Shown: positions 28,922-41,668 of the stretch, one piece after another
Position numbering within the stretch: position 1 is the first letter of the stretch
Layout: every line of letters begins with the position of its first letter
The notes under the pieces: model-generated
The model's database searches: none
Told to the model about the DNA's origin: nothing
The model's input: the letters and a program-made list of their open reading frames with translations, nothing else
Assembly: GCF_008364845.1 (NCBI RefSeq)
Contig: NZ_VTTP01000013.1
Coordinates: 1 to 64,000, forward strand
Direction of reading: 5' to 3'
Length of the DNA stretch: 64,000 bases
Origin: Actinotalea subterranea
GTDB taxonomy: Bacteria > Actinomycetota > Actinomycetes > Actinomycetales > Cellulomonadaceae
Program-made: the position numbers and the translations under genes

Positions 28922-29257
28922 ATGGCTAGGATCTACGGCTACTTCGAGCACCCCGACGACCTGACCCCCGGGCGGTCGAAGGAGGGGGGACTCCACCAGA
29001 ACCTCTACGACAGCGACAGGCGCCTCGCAGACCACGCCACGTTCTTCCCGGACGACGAGGAGCTGCAGCCCGCCCACGGGAGCGCGGCGGCGTCAGGAGA
29101 TGGCGACGACCTGACTCTCGAGGGTCTGCTCGGCGCGCTCGTCCTCCTCGGAGCCATGGCCGCCTTGGAGACGGCGAAGCCGCACGTCGTGAAGTGGTGG
29201 GGCGACCAGGCGCTCCCTGTCCTCAGGTCGACGTGGCACAGGCTGGCCACGCCATGA
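28922..29257 (+). CDS. Small protein of unknown function, possibly 3'-truncated
   Basis: I do not recognise a named family in this 111-residue protein. It has a polar N-terminal half rich in Asp, Gly and His (ARIYGYFEHPDDLTPGR, EGGLHQNLY) and one hydrophobic helix (about 68-85, LLGALVLLGAMAALETA), followed by a basic amphipathic end. The ATG follows GGAGGGG. The stop codon overlaps the first ATG of a truncated GH31 frame in ATGA. The gene may have lost its natural 3' end at that junction; this is an inference. Confidence 0.6.
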   Translation: MARIYGYFEHPDDLTPGRSKEGGLHQNLYDSDRRLADHATFFPDDEELQPAHGSAAASGDGDDLTLEGLLGALVLLGAMAALETAKPHVVKWWGDQALPVLRSTWHRLATP

Positions 29258-30090
29258 TCGGGAACCTCTACCCTCAGCTCTTCGCCCGCGCGTTCCACGA
29301 CGGGCAGACGGCCGCCGGGCAGGACGACGTCGTCAACCTCGTCCGGTGCGTCTGGGCAGGCAGCCAGCGGTACGGGGCGCTGGCCTGGTCGGGGGACATC
29401 CACTCGACCTTCGAGGACCTGCGCAGCCAGGTGACCGCGGGCATCCACATGGGTGTGGCGGGCATCCCGTGGTTCACCACCGACATCGGTGGTTTCCACG
29501 ACGGGGACGTCGACGACCCGCAGTTCCGGGAGCTGCTCGTGCGCTGGTTCCAGTTCGGCACGTTCTGCCCGGTCATGCGCCTGCACGGCGACCGGCTGCC
29601 CTACCGTGACGTCACGGCTGCGGACGGCTCGCGCCGGTTGCGCAGCGGCGGGCCCAACGAGCTCTGGAGCTTCGGCGACGAGGTCTACGAGGTCCTGGCC
29701 GCGTACGTCCACCTGCGAGAGGCGCTGCGTCCCTACACGCGGGCCCTCATGGTCGACGCGCACGAGCACGGTCAGCCGGTCATGCGCGGCATGTTCCACG
29801 AGTTCCCGCACGACGCGACCGCCTGGGACCTCGACGACCAGTACATGTACGGGCCGGACGTCCTCGTCGCGCCCGTGCTCGAGGCCGGCGCGACGTCGCG
29901 GGCCGTGTACCTGCCGAGCGGCGCCCGGTGGACGGACGCGCACACGGGCGACGTGCACGACGGCGGACGCTGGGTCCGCGCCAGCGCGCCCCTCGCCGTC
30001 GTCCCCGTGTTCCTGCGCGACGGCGCGTTGCCCGCTCTCGTCGGTGCGCTCCCGGGGCCGGGCGTGCGCGCATCCGCGGTCGGTACGTGA
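29254..30090 (+). pseudogene. 5'-truncated GH31 alpha-glycosidase remnant
   Basis: The 278-residue frame matches only the C-terminal part of GH31 enzymes. It has WAGSQRYGALAWSGD, where D48 aligns with the acid/base Asp of YicI-type enzymes, then TTDIGGF, RLHGDR and the C-terminal sheet domain. The N-terminal domain and the first half of the barrel, including the nucleophile Asp, are absent, and I find no trace of them upstream in any frame. Homology begins at the ATG itself (IGNLYPQLFARAF). It cannot be an active glycosidase. It lies just before the ROK gene. Confidence 0.85.
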
Positions 30091-30153
30091 GGGGACGCCC
30101 TCGCCAGGGTGCTGTCCGGGGTGGCCGGGGAGCGACGTTGGTATCTTCGCGCC

Positions 30154-31377
30154 ATGGTCGATCAGGGTTCCGGCAGGGTCGGCGGTTCGCCTGCCCCGGA
30201 GGCCGCGACCGTCAGCTCGTTGCGGCAGCGCAACCGGGCGCGCCTCCTGGCCCACGTCCTGAAGTCGGGCCGCACCACGCGGGGTGACCTCGCGCGGGAG
30301 TGCGGTGTGTCCATCGCGTCGGCCACGAACATCGTCAACGACCTCGTCGCGGAGGGGCTGGTCCACGAGACGGGGCTCATCGCGTCGCGCGGGGGCAGGC
30401 CCATCGGCGTCGTCGAGCCACGGCCTGAGGGGGCGTACCTGGTCGGTGCGGACGTGGGGGAGCGCGGCGTCGCGGTCGAGCTGTTCGACCTCGCGATGCA
30501 CCGGATCGACCGGGAGTTCCGCGGCGGGCGCGACCAGGAGAGCCCGCAGACGATCGCGCACGACCTCGACGACGCCATCGGCGCGCTGCGTGAGCGCAAC
30601 CCGCAGGCGTGGGCGTCGCTCGCCGGCATCGGGCTGGGCCTGCCGGGCGTGGTCGGGACGGCGCCCGACGGTGCGCAGACGCTGTACGCGCAGAGCCTGG
30701 GCTGGGACCCCGTCCCGGTCACCGACCTCGTCCACGTGGACGGCCCGGTGTTCGCGGAGAACGGCGCCAAGACGCAGGCGATGGCGGAGCTGTGGTTCGG
30801 GGCGGCGCGGGGCATCGAGCACGCGCTCGTCGTGCTCCTCGGGCGCGGCGTCGGCCTCGGCATCATCGCCGACGGCCGGCTCCAGCGCGGCGCGACGAGC
30901 AGCGCCGCCGAGTGGGGCCACACCAAGATCGTTCGCGGCGGGGCGCTCTGCCGCTGCGGGGACCGCGGGTGCCTCGAGGCCTACGTCGGCGCGGACGCGA
31001 TCCTCCAGGCGTGGCGGGACACGGGGGCCACCTTCGAGGGGACGGGCTGGCGTGCGATCGGCGAGGTCCTCGAGGCTGCCGAGGCGGGGGAGGCCGGGGC
31101 CGTGCGGGTCGTCGACGACGTGGTCGCGTCGCTCGGGGTGGCGCTGGGCAGCGTCGTCAACCTCACCGACCCGCAGCGCATCGTGATCGGCGGCTGGGTC
31201 GGCCTCCGGCTGATGGAGCGGCTTCAGCCGCGCCTCATCGAGGCGACGCGCGAGAACGCGCTCACCCTGTTCGGCGGCCGGGTTGACCTCGTCGCCTCCG
31301 CGTTCGGCGGTGACACGGTCGCGCTGGGGGCCGCCATCATGCCGATGGAGTCGCTGGTCCGGGCCCCGCGCCCGTAG
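30154..31377 (+). CDS. ROK family transcriptional regulator
   Basis: This 407-residue protein has an N-terminal winged helix (SGRTTRGDLARECGVSIASATNIVNDLVAEGLV) and a sugar-kinase-like ROK domain with the zinc motif CRCGDRGCLEAY. It is of the XylR/NagC repressor type. ATG 30154 is preceded by a TATCTT hexamer (30142-30147) and no ribosome site, so it may be leaderless. It stands at the head of the glucan locus and probably controls the GH5 and importer genes through a shared upstream element. Confidence 0.88.
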   Translation: MVDQGSGRVGGSPAPEAATVSSLRQRNRARLLAHVLKSGRTTRGDLARECGVSIASATNIVNDLVAEGLVHETGLIASRGGRPIGVVEPRPEGAYLVGADVGERGVAVELFDLAMHRIDREFRGGRDQESPQTIAHDLDDAIGALRERNPQAWASLAGIGLGLPGVVGTAPDGAQTLYAQSLGWDPVPVTDLVHVDGPVFAENGAKTQAMAELWFGAARGIEHALVVLLGRGVGLGIIADGRLQRGATSSAAEWGHTKIVRGGALCRCGDRGCLEAYVGADAILQAWRDTGATFEGTGWRAIGEVLEAAEAGEAGAVRVVDDVVASLGVALGSVVNLTDPQRIVIGGWVGLRLMERLQPRLIEATRENALTLFGGRVDLVASAFGGDTVALGAAIMPMESLVRAPRP

Positions 31378-31415
31378 CCCCTCGCGTGTGCGGTGCGTTG
31401 CGGGTGGCCGTCCCC

Positions 31416-31440
31416 GCATAATCGCAGCACTTAGTTCAAG
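31416..31440 (+). promoter_or_regulatory. Candidate ROK-regulon element upstream of the secreted GH5 gene
   Basis: The block GCATA...TC...CAGCACTTA followed by GTTCAAG lies 131 bases before the GH5 start (CAGCACTTA at 31425-31433). The same block recurs upstream of the importer gene at 34496. TTAGTT resembles the half-site of XylR-type ROK operators. Shared control by the adjacent ROK protein is inferred. Confidence 0.5.
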
Positions 31441-31479
31441 GCCTCGACAAAGCCCTTGGGCGATGCCACGCTGACTCCC

Positions 31480-31497
31480 GCGGGCACCGTCGCCCGC
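31480..31497 (+). terminator. Short GC hairpin after the ROK gene
   Basis: GCGGGC and GCCCGC pair around the loop ACCGTC, about 100 bases after the ROK stop and 59 before the GH5 start. It could end the ROK transcript or form part of the GH5 leader. The stem is short. Confidence 0.3.
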
Positions 31498-31555
31498 GCC
31501 CGCGTCATCACACGCGCATCCACCCCGTGATGAGCGGGCATGGTCGAGGAGGATC

Positions 31556-34390
31556 ATGAAGGGGAAGACGTTCGCGGGCGCCGTCCTGGCGACGACGCTC
31601 ATGGCAGTGGGGCTCACACCACCGGTCGCGGCCAGCGCCGCGCTCGGGAACGGTGACTTCATCAAGGCCGACGGAAACGTCCTGAGGCTCAACGCGGGCA
31701 CTGGCGCAGCGATCAACCTGCGCGGGACCAACATCGGCGGCTGGCTCACCCAGGAGGACTGGATGTCCCCGCTGGGCGAGTTCGCCGTCGACCGCACCGG
31801 CTGGTCGCTCAGCGCCTCCGCGGGGACGGCCTCGGCCGCCGCCGACGGGTCGGGCACCGCCCGGTGGACGACCGGCGCCAACCAGAGCGGCGGCGAGTGG
31901 ATCCAGGCGAACCTCGGTGCGCCCACGCTCTTCAACCGTCTGTCGATCGACAACACGGCGAACCCCGGGCAGTACCCGCGCACCGTCGACGTGCAGGTGT
32001 CGAACGACGGGACAACCTGGGTGAGCGTCGCGACCCAGCCGGGTGCCGACGGCGTCACCACGGTCAAGTTCGCCGCCCAGGTCGCGAGCCACGTCAGGGT
32101 GCGTCAGACGGGCTCCGCGTCCGCGCTGTGGTCGGTGGGCGAGCTCAACCTCTTCAACGACCCGGTGCTGCACAACGGCGCGCACACGGCGTCGGCCTTC
32201 GCGACCGTCGGCGGCGGGTCCGCGGCGAACGCGCTCGACGGGAACGCGGCCACCGCCTGGCAGAGCGGCACCCCGCAGGTGCCCGGCCAGACCTTCACGA
32301 TCGACCTCGGCCGCAACGTGGACATGGACAAGGTCCTGTTCGACTCGGGCGCGGCCGCCCCCGACGACTACCCGCGGACCTGGGACGTCTACGTCTCCTG
32401 GGACAACGTGAACTTCACCCAGGTCGCGAGCGGCTACGGCACCAACCGGGTGATCCAGGCGGACTTCCAGGGCACCAAGAACGGCAGGTACCTGCGGCTC
32501 GCGTCCAACGGCACCTCGTCCCAGTGGTGGAGCATCGCCGAGGTCGCCATCTCCAGCGGCACGTCGCTCGACCGTGCGGGCTGGGGCGTCACGGCGTCCG
32601 TGGGTGCCTCCCCGGCGGCCATGGTCGACGGCAACGTCGGCACCAGGTGGACCACGGGTGCGGCCCAGACCAACGGGCAGCAGGTCCAGGTCGACATGGG
32701 TGCGCTCGTCACGCTCGACAACGTGACCATCGACACCGCCAAGAACACCTCCGACGAGACCGACTACGCGCGGGGCTACCGGCTCGAGCTCTCGAGGGAC
32801 GGCAGCACCTGGACGACGGTCGCGACGGGCGTCGGCACCCGCAAGGCCACGACGATCGGGTTCGTCGCGCAGGCCGCGCGGTACTTCCGGCTCACGCAGA
32901 CGGGGTCGTCGGGCTCGTGGTGGTCGATCGGCGAGCTCACGGCGGGCCTCTACAACGACGACTACTCGCTCCAGCTGTCGATGGCGAACCGCTTCGGCAC
33001 CGCGGGCGCGCAGACGATCATCGACGCTCACCAGGACACGTGGATCACGGAGGCGGACCTCGACAACCTCGACGCCGCGGGCTTCAACTTCGTGCGGGTG
33101 CCCATCGGCTGGAACACGTTCCTCAACCTCGACGGGACGTGGAAGCAGAACCCGTGGGAGAAGATCGACTGGGTGGTCCAGGAGCTCAGCGAGCGCGGCA
33201 TCTACACGCTCATCGACCTGCACACCGTTCCCGGTGGCGGGTGCCCGTGGGGGAGCTGTGGTCGCATCGGCCCCAACCCCAACGGCTTCTGGGGGACCTC
33301 GACGTACCAGGACTGGGTCGTCGACATCTGGGAGGAGATCGCGGCGCGCTACGAGGGCAACCCCGCCGTCGCCGGCTACGACCTCATCAACGAGCCGCTC
33401 ATCGACTACGGCGAGGACGCGGACGACGTCGCCCAGAAGAGCGCGTACTACGACCGGCTGTACGACGCGGTCCGCGCGATCGACCCGGACCACACCGTCG
33501 TGCTCGGCGCGTTCTTCAACCTGGGTGCGATCACCCCGCCGTCGACGCACGGGTGGACCAACGTGGTCTACGAGTACCACCCGTACGACATGCCGAACTC
33601 GAAGGACTGGACGGCGCAGAACCAGCTCGTGACGAACGAGCTCGACGGCCTCGCCGCGAAGCTCGCGAACCCCGGGGTGCCGATCCTGTACGGCGAGTAC
33701 TCGCTCTACTACAACGACGACGTGTGGGCGCGTTTCATGGCCGGCCTCAACGCCTCGTCGGTGTCCTGGTCGGCGTGGACGTACAAGGTCAGGGGCACCG
33801 CGAGCGACGGGTTCGCCTACTGGGGCATGTACTACGACAACCAGAAGCCGATCCCGGTCATCAACAGCGACAGCTCCGCGACGTTCATCTCGAAGCTCGG
33901 CCAGTTCGGCACCGGGAGCTTCACGAAGAACACGCGGTTCGTCGCGACGTTGGCGAAGTACTCCGGCGGCCTCTCGACGTACTCGCCTACGGCGATCAGC
34001 CACGCGGGGTGGACGGCGACGGCGTCGAGCACCGCACCGGGGTCCTCGCCCGCGGGCGGGGTCGACGGCGTGGGCGGCGGCAGCTGGGCCACGGGCTCGG
34101 CGATGGCCGGCGGGGAGTGGTACCGCATCGACATGGGTGCCAACCGCACGGTCGCGATGGTCACGGTCCAGACGCCGACGGGGAACACGTGGGACTACCC
34201 GCGTGGCTTCGACGTCGCGGTCTCGACCGACGGGACGTCGTGGACGACTCTGGCCACGGGCATCGCGTACGGCTGGAAGCGGCCGATCTCGGTGACGCCC
34301 ACGACGGCGCGCTACATCCGGATCACGCAGACCGGCGCCGCACCGCAGTGGTGGACGATCGACGACGTGAGCGTGTACTCGTCGTACTGA
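31556..34390 (+). CDS. Secreted GH5 glucanase with three discoidin-like domains inserted in the catalytic barrel and one at the C-terminus
   Basis: This 944-residue secreted enzyme has a signal peptide (about 1-29). The first barrel strand of a GH5 exo-beta-1,3-glucanase-like domain is at 53-75 (LRGTNIGGWLTQEDWM). Three F5/8-type-C-like domains follow at about 79-201, 205-333 and 337-463, each with a WTTG or WQSG segment and a closing QTG/WWSI region. The GH5 fold then resumes at 466 (YNDDYSLQLSMANRFG, DTWITEADLDNL) and runs to about 805, with acid/base E613 (INEP) and nucleophile E714 (YGEYS). A fourth discoidin-like domain covers 812-943. Reading frame and catalytic residues are intact. It likely depolymerises beta-glucan outside the cell for the importer that follows. 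Confidence 0.9.
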   Translation: MKGKTFAGAVLATTLMAVGLTPPVAASAALGNGDFIKADGNVLRLNAGTGAAINLRGTNIGGWLTQEDWMSPLGEFAVDRTGWSLSASAGTASAAADGSGTARWTTGANQSGGEWIQANLGAPTLFNRLSIDNTANPGQYPRTVDVQVSNDGTTWVSVATQPGADGVTTVKFAAQVASHVRVRQTGSASALWSVGELNLFNDPVLHNGAHTASAFATVGGGSAANALDGNAATAWQSGTPQVPGQTFTIDLGRNVDMDKVLFDSGAAAPDDYPRTWDVYVSWDNVNFTQVASGYGTNRVIQADFQGTKNGRYLRLASNGTSSQWWSIAEVAISSGTSLDRAGWGVTASVGASPAAMVDGNVGTRWTTGAAQTNGQQVQVDMGALVTLDNVTIDTAKNTSDETDYARGYRLELSRDGSTWTTVATGVGTRKATTIGFVAQAARYFRLTQTGSSGSWWSIGELTAGLYNDDYSLQLSMANRFGTAGAQTIIDAHQDTWITEADLDNLDAAGFNFVRVPIGWNTFLNLDGTWKQNPWEKIDWVVQELSERGIYTLIDLHTVPGGGCPWGSCGRIGPNPNGFWGTSTYQDWVVDIWEEIAARYEGNPAVAGYDLINEPLIDYGEDADDVAQKSAYYDRLYDAVRAIDPDHTVVLGAFFNLGAITPPSTHGWTNVVYEYHPYDMPNSKDWTAQNQLVTNELDGLAAKLANPGVPILYGEYSLYYNDDVWARFMAGLNASSVSWSAWTYKVRGTASDGFAYWGMYYDNQKPIPVINSDSSATFISKLGQFGTGSFTKNTRFVATLAKYSGGLSTYSPTAISHAGWTATASSTAPGSSPAGGVDGVGGGSWATGSAMAGGEWYRIDMGANRTVAMVTVQTPTGNTWDYPRGFDVAVSTDGTSWTTLATGIAYGWKRPISVTPTTARYIRITQTGAAPQWWTIDDVSVYSSY

Positions 34391-34400
34391 GGTGTGACCT

Positions 34401-34438
34401 GGTGCGGGCCCTCGCCGTCGTCGGCGGGGGCCCGCACC
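34401..34438 (+). terminator. Terminator after the secreted GH5 gene
   Basis: Two 17-base arms (34401-34417 and 34422-34438) pair with one T-G wobble around TCGT, ten bases after the stop. It separates the GH5 transcript from the importer operon. Confidence 0.8.
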
Positions 34439-34495
34439 GCTGTCCGTGCGCGTCCTGCCTCGTTACTCGATCGTGATGCGCGATGCTTGCCGCAG

Positions 34496-34521
34496 GCATA
34501 TTCCAGCACTTATTCTTGGTC
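34496..34521 (+). promoter_or_regulatory. Second copy of the candidate ROK-regulon element, upstream of the importer
   Basis: GCATATTC followed by CAGCACTTA (34504-34512) repeats the block found before the GH5 gene. Here it is 63 bases before the binding-protein start. TTCTT and AAGAA arms (34514-34518, 34526-34530) add a short dyad. It probably marks the promoter or operator of the importer operon. Confidence 0.5.
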
Positions 34522-34566
34522 GTGAAAGAAGGAGCTGCACCCCCGACCTCCAACGAAGGAGCTGTC

Positions 34567-35826
34567 ATGAGCAAGGCCCGCACCACCCGCAGGATCGGCG
34601 TGGTCGCCGTCGTCGCGACCTTCGCCCTCACCGGCTGCGGGGGGCAGTCGCCCGAGGCCGACGCCGCCGGCGACGACACCGAGACCGCGCCCCTGACCGT
34701 CTGGGTCATGGGCGACTCGGGTGCCAACCTCGAGGCCGCCGTCGAGCCGTTCACCGCCGAGACGGGCATCGCCGTCGACGTCGAGGCGATCCCCTGGGAC
34801 AACGTCAACGACCGCCTCACCACCGCCGTCGCCTCGGGCGAGGGCCCCGACGTCACGCAGATCGGCCTGTCCCACCTCGCGTCCTTCCTCGAGGGCGGCG
34901 CGCTCGAGGACCTCACCGACTACGTCCCCGACCACCCCAACCTCGACCCCGCGAACTTCCCGAGCGCCGTCGCGGCCGAGAACCTCAACCCTGAGGGCGG
35001 GCTGTACTCCGTGCCGTGGGTGAGCGACACGCGTGTGCTCTTCTACCGCTCGGACATCCTCGCCGAGGCAGGCATCGACGGGCCGCCGGCCACGTGGGAC
35101 GAGCTTCGCACGGCGGCGACCACCCTCGCCGCCCGGGGCGACGGGCAGTACGGCTACTACATCCCGCAGTGGGACGCTCCGCTCCCCGTCACCTACACGT
35201 GGCAGTCGGGCGGCGACGTCATCGCCAAGGACGGGACCATCGAGCTCGACACGCCCGCCTTCCGGGAGGCCGTCGACCACTACCTGGGCTTCTACGAGGA
35301 CGCGTCCGTGCCCACGGCCGGTGACTTCGACCAGACGGCCGGGTTCATCTCGGGCTCCGCACCCCTGCTCGTCTCGGGCCCCTACCTCGCAGCCGCCATC
35401 GCCGAGCAGGCCCCCGACCTCGAGGGCAAGTGGGGCGTGACCACGGTGCCCAGCAACGACTCGGCCACCTCGCTCTTCGCCGGCTCCAACCTGGGCATCT
35501 GGAGGGGCACCGAGAACATGGACGCCGCGCTCCAGCTCCTGGACTTCCTCACCGAGGCCGACACCCAGGTCGCCTGGTACGACGCCACGGGCGAGCTCCC
35601 CGCCGTGACCGCCGCGTTCGACGACGCGGCGCTCGCCGACGACCCGCTCGCCGTGGTCTACGCCGAGCAGCTCCAGGACTCCCGCCCGCTGCCCATCAGC
35701 ACCGCCTGGGACGAGGCGAACAAGGCAGTCCTCGAGTCCCTCAACGCGATCGCGCTGACCGGCGCCGACAAGGAGCAGACCCTGACGGCCCTGTTCGCCA
35801 CGATCGAGGAGATCAACGCCCGATGA
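34567..35826 (+). CDS. Sugar ABC transporter substrate-binding lipoprotein (glucan locus)
   Basis: This 419-residue binding protein has a basic start, a hydrophobic segment and a lipobox LTGC (Cys about 23), so it is membrane-anchored. The ATG at 34567 follows GAAGGAG. The mature domain is family 1 solute-binding, with PWVSDTRVLFYRSDILAEAGI in the hinge area. Its stop overlaps the permease start in ATGA. Given the two GH5 and one GH3 genes around it, beta-gluco-oligosaccharides are the likely ligand. Confidence 0.9.
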   Translation: MSKARTTRRIGVVAVVATFALTGCGGQSPEADAAGDDTETAPLTVWVMGDSGANLEAAVEPFTAETGIAVDVEAIPWDNVNDRLTTAVASGEGPDVTQIGLSHLASFLEGGALEDLTDYVPDHPNLDPANFPSAVAAENLNPEGGLYSVPWVSDTRVLFYRSDILAEAGIDGPPATWDELRTAATTLAARGDGQYGYYIPQWDAPLPVTYTWQSGGDVIAKDGTIELDTPAFREAVDHYLGFYEDASVPTAGDFDQTAGFISGSAPLLVSGPYLAAAIAEQAPDLEGKWGVTTVPSNDSATSLFAGSNLGIWRGTENMDAALQLLDFLTEADTQVAWYDATGELPAVTAAFDDAALADDPLAVVYAEQLQDSRPLPISTAWDEANKAVLESLNAIALTGADKEQTLTALFATIEEINAR

Positions 35827-36848
35827 GCGGGAACGGCGGTGCCGGCGGGCCCCTCGGCGGCACCGCCGTTCTCCCTGGCACCACGGAGGTTGGACCGGTG
35901 CACGACGATCGACGGCCGGGTGCGCGGCGCCGCACCCGCCCCGGAGGAGGGCCTGCCGACCGGCGACCCCGACGCGGCCGCGCGGCGCTCGTCCCGTACG
36001 CGTTCATCTCACCGGCGCTGCTGCTGCTCGCGATGTTCGGGCTGCTGCCGATCCTCGTCGCCGCGGGCGTGAGCCTGACCGACCTCGACATCGGCGGGCT
36101 CGGCAACCCCGAGACCGTCCGCTTCATCGGCCTGGACAACTACGAGCGGCTCTTCTCGGACCCGGGCTTCTGGAAGGCCCTGCAGACCACCGCCTTCTTC
36201 GTCGTCGTCGGCGTGCCGGTCATCATCGCGGTCTCGCTGGCCGTCGCCGTCGCGCTCAACACGTCGGAGTCGCGGTTCTTCCGGGCGCTGCGCGCGTTCT
36301 ACTTCCTGCCCGCGATCACGGCCATCGTCGCGATCGCCCTGATCTGGGGCTACCTCTACAACAGCCAGTTCGGGCTGCTGAACCACCTGCTCGACCAGGT
36401 CGGCCTCGGGCCCGTCGGCTGGCTCTCCGACCCGACGTCCGCCCGGTTCTCCGTGGCGCTCGTCGCCGTGTGGCGGGCCACCGGCCTCAACATCATCATC
36501 TTCCTGGCCGCGCTCCAGTCGGTGCCGAAGGAGTACCACGAGGCCGCCGCGCTCGACGGCGCGGGCCGGTGGACCACGTTCTGGCGGGTCACGTTCCCGC
36601 TGCTGCGGTTCGCCCTCTTCTTCGTCACGGTGACCACGCTCATCGGCTGGCTCCAGTTCTTCGACGAGCCGTACGTGCTGACCAAGGGCGGCCCGGTGGG
36701 GGCGACGACGTCCATCTCCCTGTTCATCTTCGAGAACGGCTTCAGCCTCAACCAGTTCGGCTACGCCAGCGCCGGCTCGATCGTCCTGCTGATCCTCATC
36801 GCCGTCGTCACGGCGGTCCAGCTGCGCATGCGAGGTTCCGATGACTGA
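35823..36848 (+). CDS. Sugar ABC transporter permease (MalF type, glucan locus)
   Basis: This 341-residue permease has a long Arg/Pro/Gly-rich cytoplasmic N-terminal tail of about 60 residues before six membrane helices. The EAA loop reads EYHEAAALDGAGRWTTFWRVTFP. The ATG overlaps the upstream stop by four bases; a GTG at 35898 would remove part of the tail. It overlaps the next permease by eight bases. Confidence 0.9.
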   Translation: MSGNGGAGGPLGGTAVLPGTTEVGPVHDDRRPGARRRTRPGGGPADRRPRRGRAALVPYAFISPALLLLAMFGLLPILVAAGVSLTDLDIGGLGNPETVRFIGLDNYERLFSDPGFWKALQTTAFFVVVGVPVIIAVSLAVAVALNTSESRFFRALRAFYFLPAITAIVAIALIWGYLYNSQFGLLNHLLDQVGLGPVGWLSDPTSARFSVALVAVWRATGLNIIIFLAALQSVPKEYHEAAALDGAGRWTTFWRVTFPLLRFALFFVTVTTLIGWLQFFDEPYVLTKGGPVGATTSISLFIFENGFSLNQFGYASAGSIVLLILIAVVTAVQLRMRGSDD

Positions 36849-37665
36849 TCGCCGCCGACGCCCCCTCGTCGTCCTCGTCGGTGCCGTCCTCGCCGTCGGG
36901 GCGCTCGCGACCTCGTTCCCGTTCCTATGGATGATCACGAGCTCGCTCAAGCCCGCGAGCGAGGCGCTCGCCACACCCCCGACCTTCTGGCCGAGTGCGC
37001 CGTCGTTCGACGCCTACACGCGGCTCTTCACCGAGCTCGACTTCGGCAGGTACCTGCTGAACACGCTCGCCGTCGTGGCGATCGGGGCCGTCGGGCTGCT
37101 CGCGATGGCGATGGCGGGCTACGGGTTCGCCAAGTACCGGTTCCGCGGGCGTGGCGTGCTGTTCATGCTCGTCCTGATGACGCTCATGATCCCGGTCCAG
37201 GTCACGATGATCCCGACCTACCTGATCCTCAACGAGCTCCACCTGACGAACACCCTGGCCGGCATCGCCGCGCCCACCCTCGTGAGCGCCTTCGGCATCT
37301 TCCTGTTCCGGCAGTTCATGGCGACCATCCCCGACGAGCTCCTCGAGGCCGCACGCCTCGACGGTGCGGGGGAGATGCGGACGTTCCTGACGATCGTGCT
37401 GCCGCTGTCGACGCCGATCCTCGCGGTCCAGGGCGTGCTGACCTTCATCAGCGGGTGGAACAGCTTCCTGTGGCCCCTGATCATCGCGACGGACCAGGAC
37501 ATGTACACGCTCTCGGTCGGCCTCTCGCTGCTCAACCAGCAGATCACCGTGAACCCGACCCTGCAGATGGCCGGGGCCTCGCTCATGGTCGTGCCGATCA
37601 TCGTCGTCTTCGTGCTCTTCCAGCGGCACATCGTCCAGGGCTTCACGATGTCGGGCCTGAAGTAG
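36841..37665 (+). CDS. Sugar ABC transporter permease (MalG type, glucan locus)
   Basis: This 274-residue permease has six membrane helices and the EAA loop ELLEAARLDGAGEMRTFLTIVLP. Its start lies within the end of the preceding gene, so the two are coupled. It completes the importer channel. Intracellular glycosidase genes follow 50 bases later. Confidence 0.92.
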   Translation: MTDRRRRPLVVLVGAVLAVGALATSFPFLWMITSSLKPASEALATPPTFWPSAPSFDAYTRLFTELDFGRYLLNTLAVVAIGAVGLLAMAMAGYGFAKYRFRGRGVLFMLVLMTLMIPVQVTMIPTYLILNELHLTNTLAGIAAPTLVSAFGIFLFRQFMATIPDELLEAARLDGAGEMRTFLTIVLPLSTPILAVQGVLTFISGWNSFLWPLIIATDQDMYTLSVGLSLLNQQITVNPTLQMAGASLMVVPIIVVFVLFQRHIVQGFTMSGLK

Positions 37666-37715: not shown

Positions 37716-39365
37716 GTGTCCCACGTCTCTGCCTCGACCCGTCCCCGCACACCCGTGCACGCCCCGTCCGCGTTCGTCCGGGCGGAGGGCGGGCGACTGG
37801 TCGGGCCCGACGGCGAGCCCCTCCTGCTCCGGGGTGTCGGCCTGGGCAACTGGCTGCTGCCCGAGGGCTACATGTGGGGTTTCGGGCACGCGGCCGCCTC
37901 TCCCACGCAGATCGAGGCGCTCGTCGTCGACCTCGTCGGCGAGCAGGAGGCCGCCGCGTTCTGGCGACGCTTCCGGGAGGTGTTCGTCACGCAGGCCGAC
38001 GTCGCCCAGATCGCGCGGGACGGGTTCGACCACGTGCGCCTGCCCATCAACTGGCGCGTGCTCATGACCGGGGACGGTGGCTGGCGCGAGGACGGGTTCG
38101 CGCTCGTCGAGCGCCTCGTGGGCTGGTGCCGCGACGCCGGGCTCCGCGTGCTCCTGGACCTGCACGGCGCGCCGGGCGGCCAGACGGGCACCAACATCGA
38201 CGACTCGGACGGCCGCCCCGCGCTGTTCATGGACCCCCGGAACGCGGACCTCACCGTCGCCCTGTGGGTCGAGCTCGCGCGTCGCTACGCGAGCGAGCCG
38301 GCCGTGCTCGGCTACGACCTGCTCAACGAGCCGCTGCCCAACGAGTGGCAGCACACGTACCCCGAGCAGCTCGTCGCGCTGTACCGGCGGATCACCGCGG
38401 CGATCCGCGACGTCGACCCCGACCACCTGATCATGTACGAGGGCACGCACTGGGCGACCGGCTGGGAGATCTTCACGCAGGTGTGGGACGAGAACTCCGC
38501 GCTCCAGTTCCACAAGTACTGGTCGGCCGCCGACCGTCCCAGCATCCAGGGGTACGTCGAGGTGGGTCGCCGGCTCGGCCTGCCGGTCTACATGGGGGAG
38601 GGCGGCGAGAACACGCCCGAGTGGCTCGCCGCGGCCCACCAGCTCTACGAGGACCACGGGATCGGCTGGAACTTCTGGCCCTGGAAGAAGATCGACACGC
38701 AGACGTCGCCGATGTCGGTGCGCGCGCCCGAGGGCTGGGACCGCGTGCTCGCGTACGCGGACGGCCGGGGGCCGCGCCCGGACCGGGCCGACGCCGTCCG
38801 GATCCTCACCGACCTGCTCGACGCCATGCCCGCGCACGCGTGCGAGCGGCGCGAGGACGTCGTGCACGCCCTGTTCCGTCGGGCCCCGGTGACGCTGCCG
38901 GCGAGCGCGTTCACGTTCCGCGGCGCCGGCGCGTCGTACGGCACCACCCGAGCCGTGCCCCACCCGCAGCTGCGGCCCGACGACGCCGTGACGCTCCGGC
39001 GCCGGGACGGCGGTCCGGACCTCGGCTTCGAGCACCCCCGCGCCGCCGGGCCGGAGGGCGACGTGGTCGCCGACCTGGCCCCGGGCGACTGGCTCGTGCT
39101 CGAGCCCGAGGTGCCCGCGGGCACGTGGGAGGTCGTGGTCCTCGGCACCTGCGGCGCGCCGGGCGCGCCGGGCGCTGTCCCGCTGCTCGAGGTCGACGGC
39201 GTGCCGATCGCCCTGCACCCCGCGCCGGCTCACGCCACGGCCCTGGACGACGCGTGGGCGGCACCGCTCACGTCCCCGCGGCCGGACCGCGTCGCGCTCC
39301 GGGTCGCCGCGGCCGACGGCGGGCTCACGCTCGCCTCCGTGCGCGTGACGGGGGTCGCCTCGTGA
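37716..39365 (+). CDS. Intracellular GH5 glycosidase
   Basis: This 549-residue enzyme has no signal peptide. The GH5 barrel covers about 20-370, with LRGVGLGNWLLPEGYMWGFG as first strand, acid/base E205 (LLNEP) and nucleophile E295 (YMGEGGENTPEW). A C-terminal beta-rich domain of about 140 residues follows, possibly carbohydrate-binding. The GTG has GGAGGA upstream. It probably trims imported gluco-oligosaccharides. Its stop overlaps the GH3 start in GTGA, so the two are made together. Confidence 0.88.
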   Translation: MSHVSASTRPRTPVHAPSAFVRAEGGRLVGPDGEPLLLRGVGLGNWLLPEGYMWGFGHAAASPTQIEALVVDLVGEQEAAAFWRRFREVFVTQADVAQIARDGFDHVRLPINWRVLMTGDGGWREDGFALVERLVGWCRDAGLRVLLDLHGAPGGQTGTNIDDSDGRPALFMDPRNADLTVALWVELARRYASEPAVLGYDLLNEPLPNEWQHTYPEQLVALYRRITAAIRDVDPDHLIMYEGTHWATGWEIFTQVWDENSALQFHKYWSAADRPSIQGYVEVGRRLGLPVYMGEGGENTPEWLAAAHQLYEDHGIGWNFWPWKKIDTQTSPMSVRAPEGWDRVLAYADGRGPRPDRADAVRILTDLLDAMPAHACERREDVVHALFRRAPVTLPASAFTFRGAGASYGTTRAVPHPQLRPDDAVTLRRRDGGPDLGFEHPRAAGPEGDVVADLAPGDWLVLEPEVPAGTWEVVVLGTCGAPGAPGAVPLLEVDGVPIALHPAPAHATALDDAWAAPLTSPRPDRVALRVAAADGGLTLASVRVTGVAS

Positions 39366-41668
39366 GCGCGCTCGGGACGCACGTCGCCGCGCCGTACCGG
39401 GACGCCGGCCTGCCGGTCGCCGAGCGGGTCGCCGACCTGCTGGGCCGCATGACGCTCGCCGAGAAGGTCGGCCAGATGCTGCTGCTCGACGCGCAGGAGG
39501 GCGTCGAGCACGCCGTGGAGCAGCGGCACGCAGGCGCGATCCTGCACGCGTCGCCCGCGCACGTGCGCGCGGCCCACGAGGCCGTGACCCGGACCCGGCT
39601 CGGCATCCCCGTGCTCGTCGGGGAGGACTGCATCCACGGCCACTCCTTCGAGGCGGGCGCGACGATCTTCCCCACCCAGCTCGGCATGGCCGCGAGCTGG
39701 TCGCCCGAGCTCCTCGAGCGCGTGGCGCGCGCGACCGCCGTCGAGGTCGCCGCGACGGGCGTGCACTGGACGTTCTCGCCCGTGCTCTGCATCGCGCGCG
39801 ACCTGCGGTGGGGTCGCGTGGGGGAGACGTTCGGCGAGGACCCGTACCTCCTCGGTGAGCTCGGCGCCGCCATGGTGCGCGGGTACCAGGGCGACGGGCT
39901 GTCCGACCCCACTGCGGTGCTCGCGACCGCGAAGCACTTCGCGGGGTACTCGGAGACGCAGGGCGGACGCGACGCGTCCGAGGCCGACATCTCGCGGCGC
40001 AAGCTCCGCTCGTGGTTCCTGCCCCCGTTCGAGCGGGTCGTGCGCGAGGGCACGGGCACCGTGATGCTCGGCTACCAGTCGATGGACGGCGTGCCCGTCA
40101 CCACGAACGCATGGCTGCTCGACGGCGTGCTGCGCCAGGAGTGGGACTACCCGGGTGTCCTCGTCACCGACTGGGACAACGTCGGGCGCATGGTCTGGGA
40201 GCAGCGGATCTTCCCCGACGACGTCGCCGCGGCGGCCGCGGCCATCCGCGCCGGGAACGACGTGATCATGACGACCCCGCAGTTCTTCGAGGCGGCCCAG
40301 GAGGCCGTGCGCACGGGCATGGCCGACGAGGCGGGCATCGACCGTGCCGTCGCCCGCATCCTCGCCCTCAAGTTCCGGATGGGGCTGTTCGAGGACCCCC
40401 GGCACCCGCACCCCGACCGCCGCCGGCTCGTCGGCGCAGCACCGCACGCCCAGCTCAACCTCGAGGTCGCGCGCCGGTCGCTCGTCCTGCTGCGCAACGA
40501 CGGCACGCTCCCGCTGGCGGGCGGCTGCCGGACGGTCCCTGGCGGCGCGAGCGTCGCCGTCGACCCGCGCCCGCGCCGCGTCCTGGTCGTCGGCCCCAAC
40601 GCCGACGACGTCCACACGCAGCTCGGCGACTGGGCGGGCGCGTCGGGCCAGGTGCGCTGGCTCATGCCCGACGGGCACCCGCGCGAGCTCACGGAGACCG
40701 TCGTGGACGGGCTGCGGGCCCTCGCGCCGTCGGCGTGGCAGGTCACCCACGCGCGCGGCGCCGACATCCTGACGGTCGGCCCCGACCCCGAGGGCGAGAC
40801 CTTCCCCGACGGTCAGCCCCGCCCCCCGGTCGTGCACCCGGCGCCCGTGGACCAGGGCCTCCTCGACGAGGCCGTCGACGCGGCACGCGACGCCGACGTG
40901 GTGGTCGCCGTGGTGGGTGACCGCATCGAGCTCGTCGGCGAGGGCCGGTCCACGGCCACGCTCGAGCTCATGGGTGGTCAGGTGGCGCTCCTGGACGCGC
41001 TCGTGGCCACGGGCACGCCCGTCGTCGTGGTCCTGCTCGCGTCCAAGCCGCTCGTGCTGCCTCCGTCCGCGCTCGAGGCCGCCGCGCTCGTGTGGGCCGC
41101 GAACCCGGGGATGCGCGGTGGCCGCGCGCTCGCCGAGGTCCTGCTCGGGCTCGTCGAGCCGAGCGGTCGGCTGCCGATCTCCTTCGCCGCGCACGCCGGC
41201 CAGCAGCCGACGTACTACAACCAGGTGCGCGGCCAGCACGGCGCCAGGTACGCGGACCTCACGCAGAGCCCGGCGTTCGCGTTCGGGGAGGGCCTGAGCT
41301 ACACCACCGTGGAGTACGACGACCTGCGCGTCGTGGACCCGCAGGTGACCGCGACCGGCGTGGTCCGCGCGTCCGTGACGCTGCGCAACGCCGGCGGCCG
41401 GCCCGCGCTCGAGACCGTCCAGGTCTACGTGAGCGACGTCGTCACGTCCGCGACCTGGGCCGAGCAGGAGCTCAAGGCGTTCGTCCAGGTCGAGCTCGCC
41501 GCGGGCGAGGAGCGGACGGTCGAGCTCGAGGTCGCGGCGGCCGACTGCACCATCGTGGACGGCGCCGGGCACCGGGTCGTCGAGCCCGGCGAGTTCGAGC
41601 TCCGTGTCGGTCCGTCCTCACGGCCCCAGGCGCAGGTGCGCGCCAGGTTCACCGTCACGGGCGGCTGA
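39362..41668 (+). CDS. GH3 beta-glucosidase, intracellular
   Basis: This 768-residue enzyme has the full GH3 layout: an N-terminal barrel (MTLAEKVGQM, KHFAGYSETQGGRDASEADIS) with nucleophile D270 in LVTDWDN, an alpha/beta sandwich, and a C-terminal fibronectin-like domain (GVVRASVTLRNAGGRPALETVQVYV). No signal peptide is present. It should release glucose from short beta-linked glucosides imported by the adjacent transporter. The GTG start overlaps the GH5 stop. A linkage preference cannot be read. Confidence 0.9.
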   Translation: MSALGTHVAAPYRDAGLPVAERVADLLGRMTLAEKVGQMLLLDAQEGVEHAVEQRHAGAILHASPAHVRAAHEAVTRTRLGIPVLVGEDCIHGHSFEAGATIFPTQLGMAASWSPELLERVARATAVEVAATGVHWTFSPVLCIARDLRWGRVGETFGEDPYLLGELGAAMVRGYQGDGLSDPTAVLATAKHFAGYSETQGGRDASEADISRRKLRSWFLPPFERVVREGTGTVMLGYQSMDGVPVTTNAWLLDGVLRQEWDYPGVLVTDWDNVGRMVWEQRIFPDDVAAAAAAIRAGNDVIMTTPQFFEAAQEAVRTGMADEAGIDRAVARILALKFRMGLFEDPRHPHPDRRRLVGAAPHAQLNLEVARRSLVLLRNDGTLPLAGGCRTVPGGASVAVDPRPRRVLVVGPNADDVHTQLGDWAGASGQVRWLMPDGHPRELTETVVDGLRALAPSAWQVTHARGADILTVGPDPEGETFPDGQPRPPVVHPAPVDQGLLDEAVDAARDADVVVAVVGDRIELVGEGRSTATLELMGGQVALLDALVATGTPVVVVLLASKPLVLPPSALEAAALVWAANPGMRGGRALAEVLLGLVEPSGRLPISFAAHAGQQPTYYNQVRGQHGARYADLTQSPAFAFGEGLSYTTVEYDDLRVVDPQVTATGVVRASVTLRNAGGRPALETVQVYVSDVVTSATWAEQELKAFVQVELAAGEERTVELEVAAADCTIVDGAGHRVVEPGEFELRVGPSSRPQAQVRARFTVTGG

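Follow-up and report, generated by a model that had tools for sequence, protein, structure and literature searches.

Layout of the nested GH5 gene

The window, a stretch of 64,000 nucleotides from Actinotalea subterranea (contig NZ_VTTP01000013.1), carries on its forward strand, at 31556–34390, a gene for a glycoside hydrolase of family 5 (GH5) whose catalytic barrel is interrupted by three discoidin domains. The reading frame begins with ATG, contains no internal stops, as a first-pass annotation of this DNA had noted, and encodes 944 amino acids plus the stop codon. Pfam places the GH5 family (PF00150) at residues 491–742 (112.9 bits; cut-off 23.5) and discoidin, or F5/8-C, domains (PF00754) in four stretches (218.2 bits; cut-off 28.2), and each single copy also exceeds the cut-off, with 61.1–71 bits. 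The NCBIfam model of a NADase-type glycan-binding discoidin is likewise above its cut-off in the protein (39.5 versus 38 bits); the core receives no name in NCBIfam, where its top score of 31 bits falls far short of the cut-off (700).

A probable signal peptide, recognized by eye (residues 1–28; 31556–31639), precedes the N-terminal piece of the GH5 barrel (residues 31–74; 31646–31777), which contains strand 1 (residues 56–59) and E67 and was delimited by the DSSP strands of a structure model and by invariant residues. The nested insert (residues 75–466; 31778–32953) follows at a site where just 21–35 residues separate the strand-1 motif from the core in relatives without an insert. It is made up of the discoidins D1 (residues 78–202; 31787–32161; PF00754 at 31811–32119, 63.6 bits), D2 (residues 206–336; 32171–32563; PF00754 at 32189–32545, 62.4 bits) and D3 (residues 338–465; 32567–32950; PF00754 at 32603–32938, 71 bits). 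The main part of the barrel (residues 467–805; 32954–33970), defined by PF00150 and the DSSP strands, provides strands 2–8 together with E613 and E714, and a fourth discoidin, D4 (residues 816–944; 34001–34387; PF00754 at 34016–34354, 61.1 bits), closes the protein. The first-pass annotation had described three discoidins between strand 1 and the rest of the barrel and a fourth at the C-terminus, and all four are indeed there; its estimate of roughly 385 inserted residues has to be corrected to 392, with the core starting at residue 467. A scan of positions 31300–34700 for promoters and terminators detected none. Four further discoidin matches exist in the genome (L005–L008), in proteins that look unrelated by eye.

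A barrel split after its first strand

The two GH5 pieces were examined in an AlphaFold2 model of residues 29–944, calculated from a 35-sequence alignment (A2) of the window protein and 34 relatives, with a mean predicted local distance difference test score (pLDDT) of 90.2 and a predicted template modelling score (pTM) of 0.88. By a reading of the DSSP list combined with the sequence alignment, the barrel strands are residues 56–59, 512–517, 550–555, 605–609, 647–651, 670–674, 710–712 and 737–739. They are eight only if 56–59 is included, since residues 467–805 alone give seven. The model thus supports a single barrel built from residues ~55–74 and 467–805, as the first-pass annotation had proposed, and on its basis the arrangement that this annotation had set against its own proposal, a complete barrel within 466–805 and an N-terminal piece packed elsewhere, was rejected. 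The predicted fold is a (β/α)8 barrel with glutamates after strand 4 (605–609, E613) and strand 7 (710–712, E714); both catalytic residues are retained and had been numbered correctly. A second model, of the one-insert Herpetosiphon protein L050, has the same layout (pLDDT 88.4, pTM 0.86).

The strand-1 motif LRGTNIGGW begins at residue 55, and L55, G57, T58, N59, G61, W63, E67, W69 and G74 do not vary in any of the 35 rows of A2, the window protein included. L047, a relative without an insert, gives uninterrupted alignments that include strand 1 with the GH5_22 exo-β-xylosidase 9ku5, with 8z2w and with the Candida exo-glucanase 1cz1. E67, which lies eight residues ahead of the insert, corresponds in the alignment to E27 of the Candida exo-β-1,3-glucanase, which we take to be a sugar-binding residue; the structure of an E27Q mutant of this enzyme is among the Foldseek matches. 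The top Foldseek matches are GH5_22 exo-β-xylosidases (E 4.9e-21; TM-score 0.55–0.58 on the target), exo-β-1,3-glucanases appear further down the list (0.51–0.62), and tandem-discoidin proteins are found there as well.

None to three domains at the same site in relatives

A scan of genome contigs with the GH5 core yielded at least 574 confirmed relatives, and inserts were scored in the best 80 loci. Scores were obtained for 78 of them; L037, whose frame begins inside the insert, and L074, with no upstream motif in frame, were left out, and L046 and L083, which lie outside the motif pattern, were scored separately. The distance from motif to core falls into four classes, 21–35 residues (51 loci), 147–153 (7), 280–293 (3) and 408–415 (17), and the numbers of nested discoidins are accordingly none, one, two and three. 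A search for proteins of the same domain order, suggested in the first-pass annotation, was productive: two or three nested domains are present in 20 of the best 80 loci, and also in L012, L014 and L013, the last of which breaks off inside its fourth domain. Of the 35 A2 proteins, 26 contain discoidins according to Pfam, which is the count predicted from the insert lengths; this is a tally of numbers rather than names, and it covers the zero-insert rows up to the end of the core. Discoidin content was checked singly for L046, L051, L058, L049, L034, L026, L050, L066, L040, L045, L065, L033 and L076. Since relatives hold none, one, two or three domains at one site, the nested layout is real and conserved.

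Some relatives differ further. L040 and L045 (by Pfam) and L038 (by eye) have six discoidins each, half of them nested and half C-terminal. Among relatives with at most one nested discoidin, a C-terminal DUF7910 scores above the cut-off in L060, L061, L050, L051 and L074 and below it in L047. DUF7910 repeats presumably resemble the fascin-type β-trefoil, and the domain is perhaps of the same kind as the module found after strand 1 in plant GH5_14 enzymes. L076, from Plebeiobacterium (Bacteroidota), is a one-insert member on a long branch with a weak match to a secretion-tail domain; an independent insertion is possible in this case. Viral contigs gave 37 pattern matches and no relatives, and plasmids gave distant discoidins only (17 records, all below 60% identity).

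Distribution, history and selection

All of the best 80 relatives are bacterial, in a search of prokaryote and viral collections with the core. The gene is infrequent. Within the class of the window's organism, 14 of 394 genomes contain core matches at 1e-25, and the identity reaches at least 63% in only four, the window's own included. At 1e-50, matches occur in three of the 221 genomes of its family. The other two are one-insert forms from another genus: L107 denotes the same place as L010, and L106 has the strand-1-to-core stretch of L066 (Cellulomonas). The same family scan found no core match in 18 other genomes of the window's genus, and the window's genome is the only one of the 221 with a three-insert gene. 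The closest core among the best 80 loci, at 89% identity, belongs to Homoserinibacter (Microbacteriaceae), which, together with the isolated occurrence in the family, suggests a horizontal transfer of the locus between families.

A core tree was built from 61 rows, namely the window, 57 of the best 80 loci, L010, L012 and L014, and the two- and three-insert rows occupy one side of a branch with support of 100/99.8. Approximately unbiased (AU) tests were applied to groups set by insert length after inspection of a quick tree; several rows are long branches. A clade of three-insert forms only, as expected if the two-insert form were a step toward three, was rejected (p-AU 0.0003). The two-insert form of Streptosporangiaceae therefore most likely arose from the three-insert form by domain loss, and the missing domain is D2 according to alignment A2 and the domain tree. 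A tree with all nested forms together, as expected for a single origin without loss, was likewise rejected (p-AU 0.0004), so that these trees call for at least two gains or losses of nesting.

The domain tree, a quick-method tree with few columns (131) and 82 domains, was restricted to A2 rows and excluded L046, L051 and the C-terminal domains of the two-insert rows; D4 of L032 was too short. D1 (21 rows, support 98), D2 (18 rows, support 100) and D4 (17 rows, support 94) each lie on one side of a branch, and the 21 D3 rows group on one side together with the long row L076. The trio thus appears to have formed once and then to have passed as a whole between Actinomycetota and Paenibacillaceae.

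The ratio of nonsynonymous to synonymous substitution rates (dN/dS) of D1–D3 is 0.051–0.204 in five of six genome pairs, the sixth being saturated for D1–D3 and for the core. Over the same five pairs, the core is slightly lower, at 0.042–0.148; for D4, the ratio is 0.045–0.263 over all six pairs, with 0.263 in one pair. These ratios indicate purifying selection on D1–D3. Combined with the conserved layout, this makes the nested GH5 protein very likely functional, in agreement with the first-pass annotation.

Gene neighbourhood

Six genes around the nested GH5 gene are also on the forward strand. A ROK-family regulator (30109–31377; PF00480), which probably regulates the locus, lies upstream and has a match of at least 45% identity in 10 of the 20 two- and three-insert loci. 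Downstream follow an ATP-binding cassette (ABC) sugar-binding protein (34483–35826; PF01547), two ABC permeases (35820–36848, start approximate, and 36841–37665; both PF00528), a second GH5 without insert and, by eye, without signal peptide (37716–39365; PF00150), and a GH3 glycosidase (39362–41668, start approximate; PF00933, PF01915 and PF14310). The second GH5 had been described as continuous in the region that corresponds to the insertion site, and phmmer aligns its residues 26–275 with 9ku5 in one stretch. In 11 of the 20 two- and three-insert loci (L026–L033, L038, L045 and L049), both permeases and the second GH5 have matches of at least 50% identity near the gene, and no permease match above 30% was found in zero- and one-insert loci (tblastn, 1e-15). 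The five three-insert loci from Paenibacillaceae contain, instead, a match to the GH3 at ~30%. The presence of an importer, a second GH5 and a GH3 nearby supports a glycan-use locus, in which a polymer would be cut outside the cell, imported and finished inside.

Two further neighbours deserve mention. Of its barrel, the GH31 gene at 29194–30090 retains just the second half (PF01055 positions 181–325 of 328), together with the C-terminal domain, and the upstream part of its frame is unlike GH31 by eye; it is probably a 5'-truncated remnant. A cytochrome P450 gene (41723–42952) directly follows the GH3 gene, and among the 80 loci there is a single weak match to it near the nested GH5 gene (27%, in L049).

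Possible function of the nested domains

We propose that the protein is a secreted GH5 β-glycanase in which the nested trio would hold the substrate beside the active site, while an importer and cytoplasmic enzymes would finish the products, a β-glucan being the likeliest substrate; we give this explanation an even chance of being correct. In TIM barrels, the loops after the strands face the catalytic side. From this topology, the alignment of E67 with E27 and the start of the insert eight residues further on, the trio is expected at the mouth of the active site. There, fixed at both ends, the CBM32-like discoidins, which to judge from their sequences probably bind sugar, would hold or orient a polysaccharide chain. 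The secreted enzyme would release short glycans outside the cell, these would enter by the neighbouring ABC importer, and the second GH5 and the GH3 would complete their breakdown in the cytoplasm. The observation made in the first-pass annotation is confirmed, and its interpretation, a single split barrel with binding modules at the active-site mouth, is partly supported.

The substrate is most likely a β-glucan, with β-1,3-linked chains favoured, and a β-xylan-like polymer is the main alternative. A β-glucan is favoured by the exo-β-1,3-glucanases, which come next after the exo-β-xylosidase among the matches, and by the DUF7910 of some relatives. In the bacterial enzyme LamC, removal of a fascin-like domain is reported to have lowered binding and activity on β-1,3-glucans (cited in PMC10858996). 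The fact that an exo-β-xylosidase is the closest solved relative of both GH5 proteins argues against a β-glucan.

Several observations weigh against a substrate-holding trio in a secreted glucanase. The last strand of the discoidins (residues 191, 324, 455 and 932) carries WWSI or WWTI in D2–D4 and LWSV in D1; the double tryptophan is therefore absent from D1, which may have lost a binding residue. The catalytic core is the same in zero-insert relatives, so the insert is dispensable for the GH5 barrel as such. The top TM-score to any GH5 structure is just 0.62 on target length, and the closest solved relative by sequence (E 1.2e-22) and fold is 9ku5, not a glucanase. Finally, permeases were not found, within the DNA available, in 9 of the 20 two- and three-insert loci, two of these nine being on contigs shorter than 7 kb.

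Three other explanations were considered. The nested modules could mainly anchor the enzyme to fungal or plant cell walls or to its own cell surface and be without a role in the cleft; that they sit inside the barrel would then be a historical accident kept by purifying selection on folding. D4, a C-terminal domain of the same kind, fits such a role, as do the six-discoidin members, which are what would be expected of avidity anchors, and the two-insert clade, which lost a discoidin and kept the gene. However, the position-specific orthology of D1, D2 and D3 across Actinomycetota and Bacillota and the high pTM suggest fixed roles, and we regard anchoring as a somewhat doubtful explanation. The same high pTM is compatible with a rigid unit, and the insert sits in the loop that bears E67, aligned with E27 of the Candida enzyme; both would suit a lid or wall that shapes the pocket for chain-end (exo) specificity and has little or no sugar binding of its own. 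As the loop motif and the core are unchanged in zero-insert relatives, this is improbable. That the insert is an artefact of assembly or frame, or a recent disabling insertion, has a practically negligible probability, with no observation in its favour: three inserts occupy the same place in L012, L013, L014 and 17 other genome records, these 17 being among the best 80 loci, and dN/dS is far below 1. The artefact was rejected because the same domain order recurs in many genomes.

Comparison with known nested enzymes

The first-pass annotation knew of no described example of this architecture. For discoidins this holds within our literature search, which covered nested discoidins, CBM32 and other modules in glycoside hydrolases, left subscription journals mostly outside, and found no discoidins nested in GH5. 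It does not hold for the position, since the 2012 subfamily paper names the case of a fascin-like module after strand 1 of the GH5 barrel in plant GH5_14 (PMC3526467), and the same layout occurs in at least 17 other bacterial genomes. GH5_14 comprises plant exo-β-1,3-glucosidases, including rice GH5BG and cotton GhGH5BG; in the published model of the latter, GH5 spans residues 25–53 and 194–495 and the fascin-like module residues 64–176 (PMC10858996). The window protein shares with these the module inserted after strand 1. It differs in being bacterial, from a prokaryote assembly, and in having three nested discoidins instead of one β-trefoil, plus a C-terminal discoidin, for which the accessible GH5_14 texts have no mention of a counterpart; its Pfam list contains no DUF7910 or fascin model at E values up to 10.

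Carbohydrate-binding modules (CBM) nested in barrels are also known from EngU, the founder of GH148, in which a CBM4 shown to bind glucan lies after strand 4 of a barrel of the GH-A clan; no insert-free relatives were found by its authors (PMC5725463). Different from EngU, which belongs to another family and has a single module at another strand, the window protein has discoidins after strand 1, and 51 of its 78 scored relatives are free of inserts. A nested ancillary domain is further described for CE20 esterases, in which it is inserted in the catalytic SGNH domain, of another fold and chemistry (PMC12313940).

Among solved structures, the Geobacillus enzyme 9ku5 is the best match in sequence and fold, but identity is 20% in the Foldseek alignment, and its match to L047 crosses strand 1 without a domain-sized gap. 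The fungal and bacterial exo-β-1,3-glucanases 8z2w, 1cz1 and 6zb9 share the GH5 fold, and 8z2w and 1cz1 also have the strand-1 motif RGxNLGGW; in the alignment of these two with L047, no domain-sized gap follows strand 1.

We tentatively consider that the strand-1 loop of this GH5 lineage may be a recurrent landing site for binding modules, where bacterial discoidins were gained or lost repeatedly and became a fixed trio in one clade, and where plants carry a β-trefoil; the trio would then be a rigid extension of the cleft that couples binding and catalysis mechanically, without a linker. Related enzymes whose strand-1 site holds from zero to three modules form a natural comparison series, which makes testable how a barrel-nested module affects specificity relative to a flexibly linked one, and how a barrel copes with repeated insertions into a single loop. 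Plant GH5_14 already provides a published module after strand 1, and GH148 a CBM inserted behind strand 4. The literature search brought up no case of up to three discoidins nested in GH5, with a series from zero to three. Module insertion after strand 1 of GH5 is thus also a bacterial feature, the modules being of a different kind from those of plant GH5_14.
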